Assembly (NCBI GenBank): GCA_021816765.1
Contig: JAKAXB010000013.1
Location: 1 to 62,081, forward strand
DNA: 62,081 nt
Reading direction: 5' to 3'
Source of the DNA: Natronospirales bacterium
GTDB lineage: Bacteria > Pseudomonadota > Gammaproteobacteria > Natronospirales > REEB76
Shown here: positions 54,128 through 62,081 of the stretch, one piece after another
How positions within the stretch are numbered: position 1 is the first letter of the stretch
Layout of the letters: each line of letters begins with the position of its first letter
The notes under the pieces: generated by a model
The model's database searches: none
What the model was told of the DNA's origin: nothing
Seen by the model: the letters and a program-made list of their open reading frames with translations, nothing else
Made by a program: the position numbers and the translations under genes

Positions 54128-54874
54128 TTACCGTCGCGTGTTGCCCAGCAGGCGCAGGATTTCCAGATACAGCCAGATGAGCGTCACCATGAGGGCGAAG
54201 GCGCCATACCATTCCATATAACGCGGCGCACCCGCGGCCGCCTGTTTGGAGATCATGTCGAAATCCAGTATCAGGTTGAAGGCAGCGACGGCCACGATGA
54301 ACAGGCTGATGCCGATGGACAGGCCGGTGTGGCCGAAGAGCATGGACGTGTCCACATGGAACATGCTGACAAGCCAGGTGAGCGCGTAGAAAATCACGAT
54401 ACCGAGGGTGGCCGCGCCCACCATCTTGTAAAGCCAGGGTGTGGCCTTGATGACACCGGTGCGATACAGGATCAGCATCCCTAAGGCCACCGCCAGGGTG
54501 AGCGCGACCGCCTGGATGACGATGCCGGGATATTGGATATTGAAAATCGCCGAAACACCGCCCACCACGAAACCTTCGCAGATGGCGTACAGGGGCGCGG
54601 TAATCATCGCCCAATTGGGCTTGAAGGCCGTGGCGATGCCGAAGATGAGGCCGCCGATGACGCCACCCATCACATAGGGCATGACCGCGGCGCTGTCATG
54701 CGTGACATACAGCCGCGACCAGCACCAGGCGGCGGTAAGCATCACCAGCACCAGCAGAATCAGGCTCTTGCCGATGGTACCGTTGACCGTCATGCGTTCG
54801 CCGGCGATGGCGATGGGGTTCTGGAAAGCTTTGGCCCTGAGGGCGGGATTGCCGGTTTTCATTGGAAGAGGCAT
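54128..54874 (-). CDS. Bax inhibitor-1/YccA family membrane protein
   Basis: A 248-residue inner-membrane protein with seven helices. The family's conserved parts are LYAICEGFVVGGVSAIFN in the middle and FNLILDFDMISKQAAAGAPR near the end, where the acidic residues form the pH-sensing pair of BI-1 proteins. Members form calcium leak channels or regulate membrane protease FtsH. ATG 54874 has AGGAA seven bases upstream. It stands alone. Confidence 0.92.
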   Translation of the reverse strand: MPLPMKTGNPALRAKAFQNPIAIAGERMTVNGTIGKSLILLVLVMLTAAWCWSRLYVTHDSAAVMPYVMGGVIGGLIFGIATAFKPNWAMITAPLYAICEGFVVGGVSAIFNIQYPGIVIQAVALTLAVALGMLILYRTGVIKATPWLYKMVGAATLGIVIFYALTWLVSMFHVDTSMLFGHTGLSIGISLFIVAVAAFNLILDFDMISKQAAAGAPRYMEWYGAFALMVTLIWLYLEILRLLGNTRR

Positions 54875-54992
54875 GGGTATATTCCTGGGTTGAGATACCG
54901 TGATTGGACAGCCTGCCGTCCGCTAAGTTGCGCCACGCCATGTGGCAACGGCAGGTTACACTGTGCATCATTATATAGTGGAGCGGGGCAGC

Positions 54993-57698
54993 GTGGCAGG
55001 CCAACGCCTCTGGCACGAGAGCGAGATTCTCATGGCGCTGGATGCCGGCGCGACGGTGGTAGCAGCCAGCGAGCGGCTGGCCCGGGCCGCGCGGCTGGCG
55101 CATGCGGCACGTGCGCGCACGGCCGAGGTGTGGGAGCGTCCCGCCGTGCTCAGCTGGGGCGTGTTCCTCCAGCGACAATTCTCAGTCTATGAAGAAGCCC
55201 GGTTGCAACCCGGTCCCCGGCTTCTGGGCGCCCATCAGGCGGAAACCCTGTGGGAGACCGTGATCCACGCGGGCCACGACGGTTCCGCGCTGCTGCAACC
55301 GGCGGCCACGGCCCACGCCGCCCACGCCGCCTGGGCTGTGTGTCAGGCCTATGGCATTCCCCTTATCGAGCTGACGCAGGCGGCGGCCGGTGACGACGCG
55401 CGCCAATTCGCGCAATGGGCACAGCATTTCGCACAACGCTGCGAGACACACGGCCTTCTGGATCCGGCGCGCTTGCCGGATTATCTGACAACGCAGCTGA
55501 TAGCTGAAAAGCTGGCAGCCCCGAAATATTGTGTGTTCGCCGGTTTCGAGGAATTCACGCCACAGCAGCAGCGACTGTTGGCTGCGTTGCGTGCGGCGGG
55601 CAGCCAAGTCGAGCAGCTGCCGGTGTCCGGCGAGTGCGCGAACAGCCGTCAACGCATTGCCTGTGGGGATGCGCAAGCGGAGATGCAGGCGGCCGCGCGC
55701 TGGGCACGGGCGCTGCTGGAATGTTCGCCCACCACGCGCATCGGAATCGTTGCCCGGGACCTGACAGAACAGCGCCAGGCATTTGCCCGCACTCTCGATC
55801 AGGTTCTGTGCCCCGGCAGGCTGCCGGGTGATCCATCTTCGCGTCCCTACAACCTCTCCATCGGCCGGCCGCTCGCGGATTGCCCGGTAGTGAGCGATGC
55901 ACTCAACGTACTGCAATCGTTGCGGCGACGCTTGCCGTTTGCACAGGCGAGCCACCTGCTGCGTTCACCATTTATCACGGCCGGTGACAGTGAATCGCCG
56001 GCGCGTGCACGCCTCGAAGTCAGCCTCCGCGACGCCAATCTCGAAGAGGTAGGCCTGGGACGGTTGCTGATGTTGGCGGAGCAAGGCGGTGAAACCCAGA
56101 CATTGAAATCGGCGCTGGAGGCGGTCTTGCAACTGCTGCGCGTCACCCCGGCGCGGCAACTGCCCAGCGCCTGGTCGAAGTCTTTTGCTGCAATACTCAA
56201 GGCATTCCGCTGGCCGGGGGAACGCACCTCCGATGCCGGCGAGTACCAGGCGGTACAGAGCCTGCGCGAAGTGTTGGGAGATTTCGCGCGCCTGGATGCG
56301 GTGTTGCAACCCATCCAGGCGGAGGACGCACTCACGCGTTTCACGCGGCTGGTCTCGCAGCGCGAGTTCCAGCCGGCCAGTGCGGATGTGCCGTTGCAGG
56401 TGCTCGGCATACCGGAAACCGCCGGTCTGCAGTTCGACCACCTGTGGATCATGGGTTTGACCGACGATGTGTGGCCACCAAGTCCGCGTCCCGATCCTTT
56501 CATCCCCTGGACGATCCAGCGGCGTCACCAGCTGCCGCATGCCAGCGCCGCACGTGAACTGGAGTATGCCGTCCAGGTTACGGGTCGGCTCTTAAACTGT
56601 GCTACTGACGTGGTGGTGAGCGCACCACAACGCGATGCGGACACGGAATTGCGCTGCAGTCCGCTGCTGGCGGATATCGAACTGACAGTGCCGGCGCAGT
56701 TGCTGCAAAGTCCGGTGCAGTACTGGCATGACCGCCTGCAGAAAGAGGCTGCCGCGGCCCTCACGGAATTCACGGATGAACAGGGGCCGCCGCTGGCGGA
56801 GGCCGGTATCGTCGCGGGCGGCACCAAGGTGCTGCAGGCGCAAGCGGCCTGTCCGTTCCGGTGCTTCGCCATATATAGGTTGGGCGCGCAGCCACTGGCG
56901 AGGCCGTCGCCCGGACTCAGCCCGATGGAGCGTGGCTCACTGTTGCACGAAGCCCTGGCACGTCTGTGGGAGCGACTCAGGGATCACGCCACTCTCGCGG
57001 GCTTGCCGACTGGCGAGCGTGTGCAGCAGGTCGAAGACTGCGTCACCCAGGTGGTGAACAAGTATGCATCGCGCAATCCCGATGTCTTCACACCGAATTT
57101 CAAGCGGCTGGAACAGGAGCGCCTCACGAGATTGATCGCGGCGTGGCTTGAAATCGAAGCAACGCGCGCCCCGTTCAGTGTCGAGAAGCCTGAGCAGGAG
57201 CGGAGCGTGACGCTAGGCCGTCTCAGGCTCAATACCCGTGTGGACCGCGTTGACCGAATGCCGGGCGGCAGGCACGTGGTCATTGACTACAAAAGCGGTG
57301 AAGCCGACCCGCGCGACTGGCTGGGTGTACGGCCGGATGAACCGCAGTTGCCGATCTATGCGGTGTCGGATCCGCAACTGCCGACGGCGGTGTTGTTCGC
57401 ACAGCTGCGCGCCGGCGATCTGCGTTATCGCGGATTTGCCGAACAGGGCGGGCTGGTGCCGGAGGTCGGAGACTATGGCTCTGCGCGCAAGAAATCGGAT
57501 GACCCGCAAGATTGGCCCGCATTGCTGGCGCACTGGCAAGTCGCGGTGACGGCGCTGGCGGAAGAATTCGTGCAGGGGATCGCACGCGTGGCTCCAAAGT
57601 ACGGCGCCGACACCTGCCGCTACTGCCATCTGCAAGCACTGTGCCGCATCCATGAGCGCGATGCTTTGAGCAGGGAGGGCGATGATGCGCAAGGGTGA
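54993..57698 (+). CDS. AddB-like PD-(D/E)XK nuclease (probable DNA repair protein)
   Basis: A 901-residue protein of the group often annotated as probable DNA repair protein. The C-terminal nuclease has VVIDYKSG (D765, K767) and the iron-sulfur cysteines C620, C875, C878 and C884; the C-x2-C-x5-C tail spacing equals that of AddB. The N-terminal ~500 residues resemble an inactive helicase, with no clear Walker A. It probably forms an AddAB-like complex with the next gene to resect double-strand breaks. Start choice: GTG 54993 has GGAG upstream; ATG 54942 and ATG 55032 are in frame. It overlaps the helicase gene by 17 bp. Confidence 0.85.
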   Translation: MAGQRLWHESEILMALDAGATVVAASERLARAARLAHAARARTAEVWERPAVLSWGVFLQRQFSVYEEARLQPGPRLLGAHQAETLWETVIHAGHDGSALLQPAATAHAAHAAWAVCQAYGIPLIELTQAAAGDDARQFAQWAQHFAQRCETHGLLDPARLPDYLTTQLIAEKLAAPKYCVFAGFEEFTPQQQRLLAALRAAGSQVEQLPVSGECANSRQRIACGDAQAEMQAAARWARALLECSPTTRIGIVARDLTEQRQAFARTLDQVLCPGRLPGDPSSRPYNLSIGRPLADCPVVSDALNVLQSLRRRLPFAQASHLLRSPFITAGDSESPARARLEVSLRDANLEEVGLGRLLMLAEQGGETQTLKSALEAVLQLLRVTPARQLPSAWSKSFAAILKAFRWPGERTSDAGEYQAVQSLREVLGDFARLDAVLQPIQAEDALTRFTRLVSQREFQPASADVPLQVLGIPETAGLQFDHLWIMGLTDDVWPPSPRPDPFIPWTIQRRHQLPHASAARELEYAVQVTGRLLNCATDVVVSAPQRDADTELRCSPLLADIELTVPAQLLQSPVQYWHDRLQKEAAAALTEFTDEQGPPLAEAGIVAGGTKVLQAQAACPFRCFAIYRLGAQPLARPSPGLSPMERGSLLHEALARLWERLRDHATLAGLPTGERVQQVEDCVTQVVNKYASRNPDVFTPNFKRLEQERLTRLIAAWLEIEATRAPFSVEKPEQERSVTLGRLRLNTRVDRVDRMPGGRHVVIDYKSGEADPRDWLGVRPDEPQLPIYAVSDPQLPTAVLFAQLRAGDLRYRGFAEQGGLVPEVGDYGSARKKSDDPQDWPALLAHWQVAVTALAEEFVQGIARVAPKYGADTCRYCHLQALCRIHERDALSREGDDAQG

Positions 57699-60600
57699 TC
57701 ATCTGCCGGTGGATGCCGCGGTGCGCGCCCGCGCCCTGGATCCGCGCCAGTCGTTCATCGTGCAGGCGCCGGCCGGCTCCGGCAAGACCGAACTCCTGAC
57801 CCAGCGTTTCCTGACGCTGCTCGCGGTGGTGGATGAGCCGGAAGAGATCCTGGCCATCACTTTCACCAAGAAAGCCGCCGGCGAGATGCGCATGCGCGTC
57901 GCGCGCGCGCTGGAACTGGATGATGCCCAGGCGCCGGCGGAAGCGCACAAACGGCATACCTGGGAACTGGCGCAACGCGCGCGTGCCCGCGACCGGCTGC
58001 GCGGCTGGAACATCGCGCGCCATCCGGCGCGCCTGCGTATCCAGACCATCGATTCCCTGAATGCCGAGCTCACCCGGCGCATGCCGTTGCTGTCGAAGTT
58101 CGGCACGCAACCGGGGATCGCTGAACGTGCTGAACCGCTGTATCTGGAAGCCGCGCGCCGCACGCTCGCCCTGCTGGAAGACGGTGAGCCGCAGCAGATC
58201 CAGGCCGTGAGCGCCTTGCTGGTGCATCTGGACAACAGTTTGCCGCGGGTGATGCGGCTGATTGCCGACATGCTGCCGCGCCGCGACCAGTGGTTGCAGC
58301 ATGCGCTCGCGCAGTCCGGTGGTTTGAGACGCAAGCAGCTGGAACTCGCGCTGCAGGAAGAAGTGCGCGTGGCGCTGGCGCAGTTGCTGTATGCCATACC
58401 CGCCGATTGCCGTGAACATCTGGCGGAACTGGCGAGCAAGGCCGCCGCAAGCTTGCGCCTTCAATCCGCCACATCGGAGATCGTCGCGTGCGCGGACCTT
58501 AAAACCCTGCCCGGCACGAACCCGGAGGATTCGCCGGCCTGGCGCGGCATCGCCGAGCTCTTTCTCACCGACCGCAATGAGTGGCGCCGGCAGATCAATG
58601 CCAGGCAGGGCTTCCCGCCGGAGAGCCGTAATGACAAGACGCGCGTACAGGAACTGCTGAGGCGTTTCACTGAACTGGAGCCCCTGCGTGACTCGCTCGA
58701 ACGTGCGCGCACATTGCCACAACCGCGTTACCCGGAGAACCAATGGCAGGTGCTGGATGCGTTGTTGAGTCTGCTGCCGCTGGCTGCAGCTCAGTTGCAA
58801 CTGGTGTTCATGGAACACGGCGAAGTGGATTACGCCGAGGTATCCCTGCGTGCCTTGCAGGCACTGGGTACCGAGGATGATCCCACGGACCTGACCCTGA
58901 CCCTGGATCACCGCCTGCGGCATATCCTGGTGGATGAATTTCAGGACACCTCGGTGAACCAGATTGATCTGCTGGCGCGGCTCAGCGCCGGCTGGCAGGC
59001 CGATGATGGCCGTACCCTGTTTCTGGTGGGCGACCCCATGCAATCCATCTACCGCTTCCGGGAAGCGGAAGTGGGCCTGTTCCTGCGGGCAAGGCAGGCG
59101 GGCCTGGGTCAGATAGCGCTCACGCCCCTGACCCTGAGCGCGAATTTCCGTTCCCAGGCGGGATTGGTGCGCTGGTTCAATGACACCTTTGAGCAACTAT
59201 TCCCGCATCAGGATGACATCGCCAGCGGCGCCGTGTCCTATGCCGGGGCAAGCGCGCAATACATGGCGATGGAGGGTGCGGCGGTCCGCATGCATGCGCT
59301 ATTGCAACGCGATTCCGCCAGCGAAGCGGCGCAGGTGACGACCGTTATCGCAGCGGCGCGGGCAGAACGTCCGGATAGGCGCATCGCGGTGCTGGCCCGC
59401 CGCAAGGCCCATCTGGTATTCATCGTGCGCCGCCTGCGATCGCTGCATATCCCCTTCCGCGCGGTGGAACTGGAGAAACTGGGCGACCGGCCGGTGGTGC
59501 AGGATCTGCTGGCCCTGACCCGGGCGCTGCGGCATCCGGCGGACCGGACTGCGTGGCTCGCGAGTTTGCGTGCGCCCTGGTGCGGGCTCAGCCTGTCGGC
59601 GCTGCACGCGCTGGCGGGCCGCGATGAGGCCATGACGATTCCGGAACGGTTGCGTGATGAAGGTCTCATGGCCAGTCTCCAGCCGCAGGTGGATGGGACG
59701 CGTTTCGAATCGGTACGTGGGATCCTGCTGGAGGCGCTTGCCGACCGCCGGCGCGGCAGCCTGCGGGAACAGGTGGAACGGGTGTGGTTGCAACTGGGAG
59801 CGCCGGCCACCCTGAAATTGGCCGAAGATCTGGCGGACGCCGAGGCCTACCTGGAGTTGCTGGAAACATTGGATGACGGCGGCGAACTGCGGGATGAGGC
59901 GGAATTGGAAGCCGCCCTCACGGATCTGTTCGCGCGCCCCGACCCACGCGCGGATGAGTTGCTGCAGCTCATGACCATCCATAAGGCCAAGGGATTGGAG
60001 TTCGACGTGGTGATCGTGCCCGGTCTGGGTGCCGGTCCGGGGAGGCGCGACAAGCCGCTGCTCACCTGGCTGGAACGTCCGCGGCCCACGGGCCGCAATG
60101 ACCTGCTGCTGGCGCCGCTGGAACCCAAGGGCGGCGAGCAAGACCCCATTTACCAGTTCATCCTCTCCCTCAAGCGCGGGCAGGAGCATCTGGAGATGAC
60201 GCGCCTGCTGTATGTGGCGGCTACCCGGGCGCGGGAAAAGCTGCATCTGTTCGGTCATACCACGGTGCGGGAAAAGGACGGCGAACGCGGTCTCGCGGAG
60301 CCGCGCGCCGAATCGCTGCTGGGATTGCTGTGGCCGGTAGTCAGGGGGGATTTCGAAGCGGCTCTCCACCGGCAGGACGCGATGGCGCCGGCGCCGGAGG
60401 AACAATGCACGGTCTCCCTGCCGCTGCGGCGTCTGCGCCCGGACTGGCAGATGCCTGCGCCGGATAGCTCCATTATTTGGCCGGTCGCTGCCGAAACCCT
60501 GGCGGCTGAAGAGCGGGAACTCCTGGAATTCGAGTGGGTCGGGGATACCTTGCGACATGTGGGTAGCGTGGTTCACCGCTTGCTGCAGCGCATCGCCGCG

Positions 60601-61077
60601 GAGGATGCAGCCCATTGGGATGAGCCGCGCGTGCATAAACTGCGACCTCTCTGCGTGCACTGGTTGCGTGAATTGGGAGTCGCGGAAGCAGAACTTGACT
60701 CGGCCATGTCGGACGTATCGCAAGCCGTGTTAACCACCCTCGCGGATGAGCGCGGCCGATGGATTTTGGATAATCGGCATGCGCAGGCGCGCTCAGAATA
60801 CGCGCTGAGCCATTTCGATGGACAGCGCCTGGCCACGGGCGTCATTGACCGCACCTTCGTTGACGAGGACGGGACCCGCTGGATCGTGGATTACAAGACC
60901 AGCCGCCATCGCGGCGGCGATCTCGAGGCGTTTCTGGTGCGGGAGCAGACGCGCTATCGCAAGCAGCTGGATGGTTACGCCAAGCTGATACGCGGCCTGG
61001 AACAACGGCGTGTTAAAGTGGGACTGTATTTTCCGCTGTTGCGGCGCTTCGTGGAATGGGAACCCGCCGATGGCTGA
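57682..61077 (+). CDS. AddA/RecB-like UvrD-type helicase-nuclease
   Basis: A 1131-residue superfamily 1 helicase. Walker A is APAGSGKT (K35, T36), the Walker B region is LVDEFQDTS (D418-E419), and TIHKAKGLEFDVVIVPGLG is motif V. The C-terminus carries a RecB-type nuclease: D1056 in GVIDRTF, D1070 and K1072 in WIVDYKTS. With the upstream AddB-like protein it forms a predicted two-nuclease end-resection enzyme. GGGAGG precedes the ATG. No recC or recD is present nearby. Confidence 0.9.
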   Translation: MMRKGDHLPVDAAVRARALDPRQSFIVQAPAGSGKTELLTQRFLTLLAVVDEPEEILAITFTKKAAGEMRMRVARALELDDAQAPAEAHKRHTWELAQRARARDRLRGWNIARHPARLRIQTIDSLNAELTRRMPLLSKFGTQPGIAERAEPLYLEAARRTLALLEDGEPQQIQAVSALLVHLDNSLPRVMRLIADMLPRRDQWLQHALAQSGGLRRKQLELALQEEVRVALAQLLYAIPADCREHLAELASKAAASLRLQSATSEIVACADLKTLPGTNPEDSPAWRGIAELFLTDRNEWRRQINARQGFPPESRNDKTRVQELLRRFTELEPLRDSLERARTLPQPRYPENQWQVLDALLSLLPLAAAQLQLVFMEHGEVDYAEVSLRALQALGTEDDPTDLTLTLDHRLRHILVDEFQDTSVNQIDLLARLSAGWQADDGRTLFLVGDPMQSIYRFREAEVGLFLRARQAGLGQIALTPLTLSANFRSQAGLVRWFNDTFEQLFPHQDDIASGAVSYAGASAQYMAMEGAAVRMHALLQRDSASEAAQVTTVIAAARAERPDRRIAVLARRKAHLVFIVRRLRSLHIPFRAVELEKLGDRPVVQDLLALTRALRHPADRTAWLASLRAPWCGLSLSALHALAGRDEAMTIPERLRDEGLMASLQPQVDGTRFESVRGILLEALADRRRGSLREQVERVWLQLGAPATLKLAEDLADAEAYLELLETLDDGGELRDEAELEAALTDLFARPDPRADELLQLMTIHKAKGLEFDVVIVPGLGAGPGRRDKPLLTWLERPRPTGRNDLLLAPLEPKGGEQDPIYQFILSLKRGQEHLEMTRLLYVAATRAREKLHLFGHTTVREKDGERGLAEPRAESLLGLLWPVVRGDFEAALHRQDAMAPAPEEQCTVSLPLRRLRPDWQMPAPDSSIIWPVAAETLAAEERELLEFEWVGDTLRHVGSVVHRLLQRIAAEDAAHWDEPRVHKLRPLCVHWLRELGVAEAELDSAMSDVSQAVLTTLADERGRWILDNRHAQARSEYALSHFDGQRLATGVIDRTFVDEDGTRWIVDYKTSRHRGGDLEAFLVREQTRYRKQLDGYAKLIRGLEQRRVKVGLYFPLLRRFVEWEPADG

Positions 61078-61975
61078 GAGCCTCGCGCATTGTCTGGTGG
61101 TGGCGATCTCCTCGCGGGCTCTGTTTGGTCTCGAGGAAAGCCATCGTGTCTTCACCGGGCAGGGGCTTGAAGCCTATTCGCGCTATCAGATCGAGCACGA
61201 AGACGACCTGCTGGAACCGGGAGTCGCGTTTCCATTGGTGAACAAGCTTCTGCGGCTCAACAGCTCCGATCGGGAAAAGCGGGTGGAGGTGATCCTGTTG
61301 TCGCACAACAGCGCCGATACCGGTCTGCGCATCTTCAATTCCATCCAGCATTACCAGCTCGATATCACGCGCGCCGCCTTCACCAACGGCGCGGCCCCGT
61401 GGCGCTACGTGGAACCGTTCAGCGCCGATTTGTTCCTGTCGGCGGAGCCGAAAGACGTGGTGGCCGCCCTGGATGCGGGCCGGGCGGCGGCCGCCATCGT
61501 GCCGTCACGCGCCGAGACCGCCGCCTCCGGGCAGTTGCGCATCGCTTTCGATGGGGATGCGGTGTTGTTTTCCGACGAGGCCGAACGGGTGTATCAGGAA
61601 CAGGGATTGGCGGCCTTTGCGAAGAGCGAGAAAGCCCAGGCCCGGGCGCCGCTCAGCGGCGGACCGTTCAAGAATTTCCTGGCGGCGCTGCAGCGCATCC
61701 AGGCGGACTATCCCCTGGACTCATCGCCGATCCGCACCGCGCTGGTGACGGCGCGTTCCGCGCCCGCCCATGAGCGCGTCATCCGTACCCTGCGTGCCTG
61801 GAATATCCGCATTGACGAAGCCCTGTTTCTTGGCGGGCTGCCCAAGGGCGCATTTCTGAAAACCTTCGGCGCGGATATCTTTTTCGATGACCAGAAAGGC
61901 CATGTGGAAGCGGCCGCCGGTTATGTGGCCACCGGTCATGTGCCCCACGGCGTTACCAATCTTCAAGGCAAGTAA
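61070..61975 (+). CDS. Cytosolic 5'-nucleotidase (NT5C1-like)
   Basis: A 301-residue member of the 5'-nucleotidase family (Pfam 5-nucleotidase, PF06189), related to the cytosolic AMP-acting enzymes. Family blocks include VAISSRALFGLEESHRVF, VEVILLSHNSADTGLRIFNS and ALVTARSAPAHERVIRTLR. It releases nucleosides from nucleoside monophosphates. It overlaps the helicase gene by eight bases, so the three genes form one operon; a role in handling nucleotides freed by resection is possible but only inferred. Confidence 0.88.
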   Translation: MAESLAHCLVVAISSRALFGLEESHRVFTGQGLEAYSRYQIEHEDDLLEPGVAFPLVNKLLRLNSSDREKRVEVILLSHNSADTGLRIFNSIQHYQLDITRAAFTNGAAPWRYVEPFSADLFLSAEPKDVVAALDAGRAAAAIVPSRAETAASGQLRIAFDGDAVLFSDEAERVYQEQGLAAFAKSEKAQARAPLSGGPFKNFLAALQRIQADYPLDSSPIRTALVTARSAPAHERVIRTLRAWNIRIDEALFLGGLPKGAFLKTFGADIFFDDQKGHVEAAAGYVATGHVPHGVTNLQGK

Positions 61976-61989
61976 CAGCGGATCGCTCC

Positions 61990-62081
61990 ATGAATGAACG
62001 TGACAGCTGGCATGAAGAGAAACAATCCGAGTTTCTGTACCGGGTGATCGCGGACTGCGAACCCACGCCGGAGTTACACAC
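61990..62081 (+). CDS. Partial gene at window end, possible ferritin-like/rubrerythrin or VIT1-CCC1 family
   Basis: The first 30 codons of a gene cut by the window edge: MNERDSWHEEKQSEFLYRVI and a short continuation. WHEEKxS-LYRV resembles the N-terminus of rubrerythrin-domain proteins fused to VIT1/CCC1 transporters. The fragment is too short for certainty. It starts 14 bp after the nucleotidase gene. Confidence 0.5.
   Translation, partial: MNERDSWHEEKQSEFLYRVIADCEPTPELH

Follow-up and report, generated by a model that had tools for sequence, protein, structure and literature searches.

Why should a gene for a 5′-nucleotidase lie at the end of a probable operon for a helicase-nuclease that is predicted to work on DNA ends? 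The question arises from a 62,081-nucleotide stretch of DNA from a Natronospirales bacterium (assembly GCA_021816765.1, contig JAKAXB010000013.1), referred to here as the window, which is one entire contig (C9) of a genome assembled at 2.58 Mb in 47 contigs and 99% complete. A first reading made from the letters alone (the sequence-only reading) had placed an AddAB-like repair pair and a nucleotidase at positions 54993–61975, and three same-strand genes are indeed found there: addB, addA and a nucleotidase gene of the PF06189 family. We find that the AddAB core is unremarkable in itself, adding one member to a subfamily already described, and that the nucleotidase is a recurrent accessory rather than a fixed AddAB subunit. 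Our preferred reading, to which we assign a probability of roughly 0.55, is that the locus is an addB-addA-nucleotidase operon in which AddAB is the genome's double-strand-end enzyme and the nucleotidase acts as an accessory drain on mononucleotides.

Results

The pair belongs to a little-studied AddAB subfamily

Relatives were collected from 274 genomes drawn evenly from the class. The NCBIfam model TIGR03623 ('probable DNA repair protein') exceeds its cut-off in 99 of these and gives weaker matches in 59 more. The window AddB scores 883.3 bits against a cut-off of 299.6 and is thus a member of this subfamily; it misses the cut-off of the canonical AddAB equivalogs TIGR02786 and TIGR02784 (66.7 of the required 486.5 bits). 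By the curated cut-off, the window core belongs to the same family as the TIGR03623 AddB and AddA partners of Proteobacteria, with no core difference; in those systems the third gene, the nucleotidase, is present in a minority only.

Pfam detects a PDDEXK_1 nuclease over cut-off in AddB, with nuclease residues H652, D751, D754, D765 and K767. The C-x2-C-x5-C tail with an upstream cysteine that the sequence-only reading had described is confirmed at residues 875, 878 and 884, with C620 upstream. Across 98 aligned relatives, partial rows included, the positions of C620, C875, C878 and C884 hold cysteine in 95, 90, 90 and 89, and these four are the predicted Fe-S ligands; a second upstream cysteine, C624, is not conserved and occurs in 1 of 98, the window's own protein. 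The C-x2-C tail pattern is present in 86 of the 99 AddB proteins. Five of the other 13 are truncated, four carry C-x4-C instead (G045, G048, G057, G186), and four full-length proteins have lost the tail cysteines (G007, G108, G167 and G192; loci L093, L096, L114 and L120), which could represent natural losses of the Fe-S cluster.

The predicted AddB model has a mean predicted local distance difference test score (pLDDT) of 85.3 and a predicted template modelling score of 0.65, the latter meaning that domain placement is loose. Its first five solved matches are all Bacillus subtilis AddB chains (Z 23.3–23.9, root-mean-square deviation (RMSD) 13.9–14.3 Å over 822–830 residues), which Foldseek also retrieves, and UvrD (Z 21.5 over 359 residues), AdnA and RecC chains rank below them. 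No Walker A motif (G-x4-GK-[ST]) is found in the first 60 residues of AddB or of any of the 99 rows, some of which lack the N terminus. The modelled architecture therefore resembles that of an AddB, with a helicase-like part that appears to lack a working Walker A and a PD-(D/E)XK nuclease. The Fe-S cysteines are a further likeness to B. subtilis AddAB. That complex (3u4q, 4cei) shares with the window pair the overall AddB fold, the AddA helicase-nuclease and the presence of two nucleases; identity between the AddB proteins is 14–15% in the structural alignment, and the window protein is shorter (901 against about 1150 residues).

AddA carries a Walker lysine (K35), a DEFQD motif from residue 418, and nuclease residues D1056, D1070 and K1072. 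It too lies below all NCBIfam equivalog cut-offs (216.7 of 860.75 bits in the TIGR02786/TIGR02784 test); its Pfam matches over cut-off, to UvrD helicase domains and to PDDEXK_1, bear out the earlier description of an AddA/RecB-like partner. To judge from these motifs, the protein is a UvrD-type superfamily 1 (SF1) helicase, predicted to be intact, with a C-terminal PD-(D/E)XK nuclease. The tested motor residues are kept in 66–70 of 70 AddA proteins. Loss of nuclease residues in relatives, which would have spoken against the sequence-only reading, is rare: the AddB D765-Y766-K767 (DYK) motif is kept in 95 of 98 aligned relatives, and AddA D1056, D1070 and K1072 in 69, 67 and 67 of 70. A few AddA proteins do end before the nuclease domain (G172, G173 and G037, 851–917 residues; loci L070, L111 and L187), and at L187 the nucleotidase match begins 29 bases after the shortened AddA. 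Many UvrD-helicase models of PADLOC, GajB among them, match AddA too; we read these as general helicase matches.

In 77 of the 99 AddB loci an addA gene of the same cluster can be found downstream of addB, on its strand, contig ends being scored as misses. At 15 loci (L034, L035 and L058 among them) addB has no addA nearby. An addA match elsewhere in all 15 genomes rules out a stand-alone AddB and indicates that the pair can be split.

AddAB and RecC exclude one another

A search for RecC returned no match in the window's genome, with the E. coli control positive, and the only PDDEXK_1 matches in that genome are the two proteins described here. RecC occurs in 98 of the 274 genomes; one further weak match falls inside an AddB. 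No genome has both RecC and TIGR03623 over cut-off, and 77 have neither, a number of them with weak AddB-like matches. RecBCD is thus rejected as the identity of the window system, as the sequence-only reading had supposed when it set the pair apart from RecBCD. Because of the exclusion pattern, AddAB appears to fill the RecBCD role in the window's genome. RecC is without the nuclease that AddB keeps, and in the window AddB this nuclease looks active from its residues.

The nucleotidase keeps HAD-type active-site residues

The third protein matches PF06189 over its length (438.6 bits in Pfam) and the PADLOC model PDC-S08 with 446.7 bits. The HAD-type active-site residues D161, D163, T227, K259 and D274 are kept in all 79 nucleotidases compared, and six active-site columns that correspond to HAD motifs are kept in 77–79 of the 79. 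The predicted model is confident (pLDDT 92.6), and its solved relatives are remote: phmmer gives no convincing solved relative, Foldseek nothing under an E value of 0.001, and comparison with HAD phosphatases (AphA and others) yields Z scores of 8–10, with 10.3 over about 145 residues for an AphA-type enzyme. Residues 2–145 and 147–296 each align separately with phosphatase-type folds, which suggests, at the level of the model, an internal duplication of which only the second half is active.

The nucleotidase recurs behind addA

PF06189 is found in 84 of the 274 genomes, 41 of which also carry an AddB. Adjacency to the pair in this genome alone would have refuted the sequence-only reading, but a neighbourhood survey of the kind proposed with it finds otherwise: in 18 of these 41 genomes, from 15 families, the nucleotidase is the next gene downstream of addA, in the same orientation. 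Fourteen of the 18 were seen in stretches around addB, three across contig breaks (G088, G092, G248), and the last is G037, in which addA and the nucleotidase stay together and addB is found apart, on a different contig. In G222, counted among the linked genomes, another gene parts addB from addA. The arrangement is also present in G100, a 67% complete genome without an AddB match, giving 19 addA-nucleotidase places, and in 10 of the 19 the two matches overlap or lie at most 30 bases apart. By a rough estimate, which takes one gene in about 2,300 and leaves descent aside, chance would supply about 0.02 such neighbours in 41 genomes. Apart from addA (77), the nucleotidase is the commonest gene around the 99 AddB genes, at 18 of 99 (the fourteen above, the convergent G115 described below, and three farther off); the next cluster reaches 8 of 99 and has no fixed place.

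The linkage was also surveyed in the window's own genus and family. Eight of their 12 genomes have both AddB and nucleotidase, and in all eight the two matches share contig and strand, that of the nucleotidase starting 3360–3420 bases after that of AddB. This survey matched AddB and the nucleotidase, addA being seen in G000 and G040 and searched in those alone. Of the other four genomes, two have only the nucleotidase (G290 and G297, 75% and 52% complete), one only AddB (G298) and one neither (G296). In two genomes of family f2 the corresponding spacing is 3457 and 3475 bases. The uniform spacing in 8 of 8 genomes, together with the recurrence of the order in 15 families, argues that chance does not account for the arrangement.

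The genomes with the linkage are spread over the AddB tree, which requires 13 changes of state; well-supported branches force eight or more of these. This tree was made with FastTree from 98 of the 99 rows (the short G048 was dropped), and its long branches make the counts approximate. On the nucleotidase tree, built without the broken or partial G027, G063, G121, G212 and G260, the linked state needs 12 changes, at least three of them forced. Both trees are compatible with an ancient arrangement that was lost repeatedly and with several separate assemblies. Alignment A1 includes 24 of the 25 AddB references, a truncated one being left out, and alignment A2 48 of the 79 full-length nucleotidases.

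What follows the nucleotidase varies. At L155 and L158 the next gene belongs to one cluster common to both; scanned in L155, it is a YfbR-like 5′-deoxynucleotidase. The chromosomal genes after it at L143, L179 and L188 are HAD hydrolases where scanned, presumably ThrH-like. A conserved small partner was considered and rejected, the candidates being three plasmid proteins of about 200 residues without a Pfam match.

The nucleotidase also adjoins recC and travels on plasmids

In family f113 the nucleotidase is present in 6 of 17 genomes, from two genera (the order and the family of G228 comprise these same 17 genomes), and in all six recC is the next gene downstream of it, in the same orientation, with 19–406 bases between the matches. 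The gene order at L147 and L150 is a glutamyl-tRNA-synthetase-type gene, the nucleotidase, recC and recB; the other recC-linked genomes are G284, G285, G286 and G288. That the nucleotidase recurs beside end-resection enzymes of two kinds is a real pattern, if a modest one. In the open-access literature searched we found no report of a nucleotidase-AddAB link, of TIGR03623 or 'probable DNA repair protein' together with AddB, or of bacterial homologues of cN-I.

Nucleotidase relatives occur in 46 plasmid records and in 3 of 50,697 phage records (DQ115828, MT839593 and MT839165), one of which is a cyanophage AS-1 fragment with 56% identity. Of 15 plasmid neighbourhoods examined, 14 were annotated, and six of these have defence, restriction or nuclease genes, a count that is based on annotation, is uncontrolled against random plasmid genes, and takes SIR2 and DUF262 neighbours to be defence genes. 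Three more have a helicase or nuclease-helicase close by, one has a helicase about 5 kb away, and four have none. At L304 and L296 the plasmid-borne nucleotidase lies near SIR2-family genes; L304 also has an NTP pyrophosphatase and an adenosine deaminase close to it and is a possible nucleotide-depletion cluster.

Layout of the locus

The features of the region are listed in Table 1. The addB and addA genes overlap by 17 bases, and addA and the nucleotidase gene by eight (61070–61077), as the sequence-only reading had reported. Its phrase 'fused in one operon' holds in the sense that the genes overlap; no proteins are fused. Other starts are possible for addB, at an upstream GTG (54942) or at an ATG (55033), and the TIGR03623 match begins at 55047. 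Fourteen bases past the nucleotidase stop, another frame begins with an ATG at 61990 and leaves the contig (61990–62081 in the window), and its start looks to us like that of a ferritin-like/VIT1-type protein. Since the window is a whole contig, the 3′ end of the gene cluster lies near the contig end. Promoter and terminator scans of the region gave chance level only (two sigma-70-like sites found, 1.4 expected). A scan for the LexA-type box CTGT-N8-ACAG, with one mismatch allowed, found 16 sites where 17.4 would be expected; the closest to addB is the one at 54693, some 300 bases before the gene.

Table 1 Features of the addB-addA-nucleotidase locus in the window
Feature	Position	Strand	Details
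addB-type gene (TIGR03623)	54993..57698	+	GTG start; 901 aa; helicase-like N-terminal part and C-terminal PD-(D/E)XK nuclease
addA-type gene	57682..61077	+	1131 aa; UvrD-like SF1 helicase and C-terminal PD-(D/E)XK nuclease
5′-nucleotidase gene, PF06189 (PADLOC model PDC-S08)	61070..61975	+	ATG start, stop at 61975
Sigma-70-like site TTTTCA-16-TATATT	54856..54883	+	9/12; sole such site ahead of addB on its own strand
Divergent upstream gene, BaxI_1 family	54128-54874	opposite addB	

Discussion

From their sequences, AddA and AddB would together be the genome's helicase-nuclease for double-strand ends. In published work on AddAB, AddB cuts the 5′-ended and AddA the 3′-ended strand until Chi (PMC4824097). 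By analogy with the AddAB literature, AddA in the window system would unwind the DNA, its nuclease cutting the 3′-ended strand and the nuclease of the Fe-S-bearing AddB the 5′-ended one, which would leave a 3′ overhang for RecA and destroy unprotected linear DNA. The nucleotidase is probably co-translated with AddA through the eight-base overlap. The least certain part of the scheme is what follows: the released oligonucleotides may be degraded further to 5′-mononucleotides, which the nucleotidase may hydrolyse and so keep from being phosphorylated again, acting as a drain on the local nucleotide supply. AddAB-class enzymes release mostly oligonucleotides, and a 5′-nucleotidase converts a (d)NMP to a nucleoside, which leads away from re-use in DNA. 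We prefer a drain for this reason, and the recycling of released nucleotides proposed in the sequence-only reading appears weak. In sum, the earlier interpretation stands as to an AddAB-type rather than RecBCD-type pair and a recurrent nucleotidase, and is weak on recycling.

Several observations weigh against a functional operon with a nucleotide drain. PF06189 and AddB occur together only slightly more often than chance would have it (41 genomes against 30.4 expected; Fisher p 0.004, with descent disregarded), and PF06189 is found in 32 of the 98 RecC genomes against 30.0 expected, the same as its general frequency. More than half of the genomes with both genes (23 of 41) do not have the order: in G115 the nucleotidase adjoins but is convergent, G087 is undecided at a contig end, gaps of about 1.7, 5.1, 7.5 and 9.7 kb part it from addA in G095, G256, G063 and G014, and the remaining 17 are unlinked in the stretches seen, with 22 kb between the two on one contig in G216. 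The linked state is only mildly clustered on the AddB tree (13 changes against a shuffled mean of 16.6). Further downstream genes, one of which we take to resemble pyrD, are common to part of the linked group, so that shared descent alone explains part of the conservation. In G027 (L033) the nucleotidase beside addA is broken into two frames with stops; G173, of the same family, has no nucleotidase match. Within the window's order, all four genomes of family f3 have the nucleotidase without any TIGR03623 match, and G181, the one of them searched for RecC, has it. Finally, among loci found by name (the best 80 of at least 568 places, of which 21 are undecided at contig ends and one, L266, is without addA), the nucleotidase stands beside the pair in only 2 of 58 that can be decided (L221 and L263). 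The nucleotidase is not a required part of AddAB, because only 41 of 99 AddB genomes have it and RecC genomes have it too; its presence alone in many genomes marks it as a helper and not a subunit.

These points lend substance to a simpler account, in which the AddAB operon is ordinary and the nucleotidase a housekeeping gene that hitch-hikes in it, sharing a transcript by descent and having no functional tie to end processing. The presence of the nucleotidase in RecC genomes and in 11 genomes with neither TIGR03623 nor RecC, mostly among unrelated neighbours, its scarcity among the named loci and the frequent changes of the linked state on both trees all favour it. It is harder to reconcile with a link that persists in 15 families though the outer flanks mostly differ, with the first rank of the nucleotidase among genes near addBA, with the addA-nucleotidase pair that is kept without addB in G037, and with the separate pairing with recC, and we regard it as a plausible account that we nevertheless do not expect to hold. 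A defence module seems to us doubtful. Here AddAB would shred invading DNA and the nucleotidase would block the invader's re-use of the freed mononucleotides, in the manner of other nucleotide-depletion defences. All 48 of the nucleotidases scanned (of 79 full-length) match PDC-S08, a PADLOC name that marks a single-gene phage-defence candidate, and the neighbourhoods of plasmid copies include, in different cases, Dsr1 with restriction genes, Hhe with AbiH, SIR2, a PD-(D/E)XK nuclease with restriction genes, a RecB-like nuclease-helicase and a RecD-like helicase. Yet the PDC-S08 model matches the whole family, copies at ordinary chromosomal sites among them, and its label is therefore not specific to the window copy, which is a plain member of PDC-S08/PF06189 and differs in that its gene overlaps addA; four plasmid copies are without such neighbours, and the neighbourhoods are uncontrolled. 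The only paper naming PDC-S08 that we found in the open-access literature searched, a strain survey, reports an even split of PDC-S08 between phage-resistant and susceptible P. aeruginosa strains (PMC10855318).

The nucleotidase might instead act on DNA ends and, as a polynucleotide phosphatase does, take off their 5′ or 3′ phosphates to make them ready for AddAB. Its best structural matches include Pnkp1 (Z 10.6 over 125 residues, RMSD 3.7) and T4 Pnk (Z 10.2 over 124 residues, RMSD 3.6), but three of the four kinase-phosphatase rows align the N-terminal half, without the active site, and the one that aligns the active half (T4 Pnk, 1rpz) has a Z of 9.3. AphA-type phosphatases score alike, the Foldseek search is empty at its threshold, and the PF06189 family is annotated for mononucleotides; taken together, these make a role at DNA ends very improbable. 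We return to the operon in which the nucleotidase would drain mononucleotides. A bolder extension of it, which we offer tentatively and think unlikely in this general form, is that PF06189 nucleotidases are a general accessory of end-degrading machines, joined independently to AddAB, to RecBCD and to plasmid RecB-like and RecD-like helicase-nucleases, and starve invaders or damaged replication forks of mononucleotides at the sites where DNA is shredded; the window would then be a chromosomal case of a module that joins resection to a nucleotide drain.

The either-or pattern suggests that a little-studied AddAB replaces RecBCD in about a third of the sampled genomes (99 of 274). If the link to the nucleotidase is functional, resection of double-strand ends would be coupled to control of the nucleotide pool, and the candidate defence family PDC-S08 would gain a partner and a mechanism.

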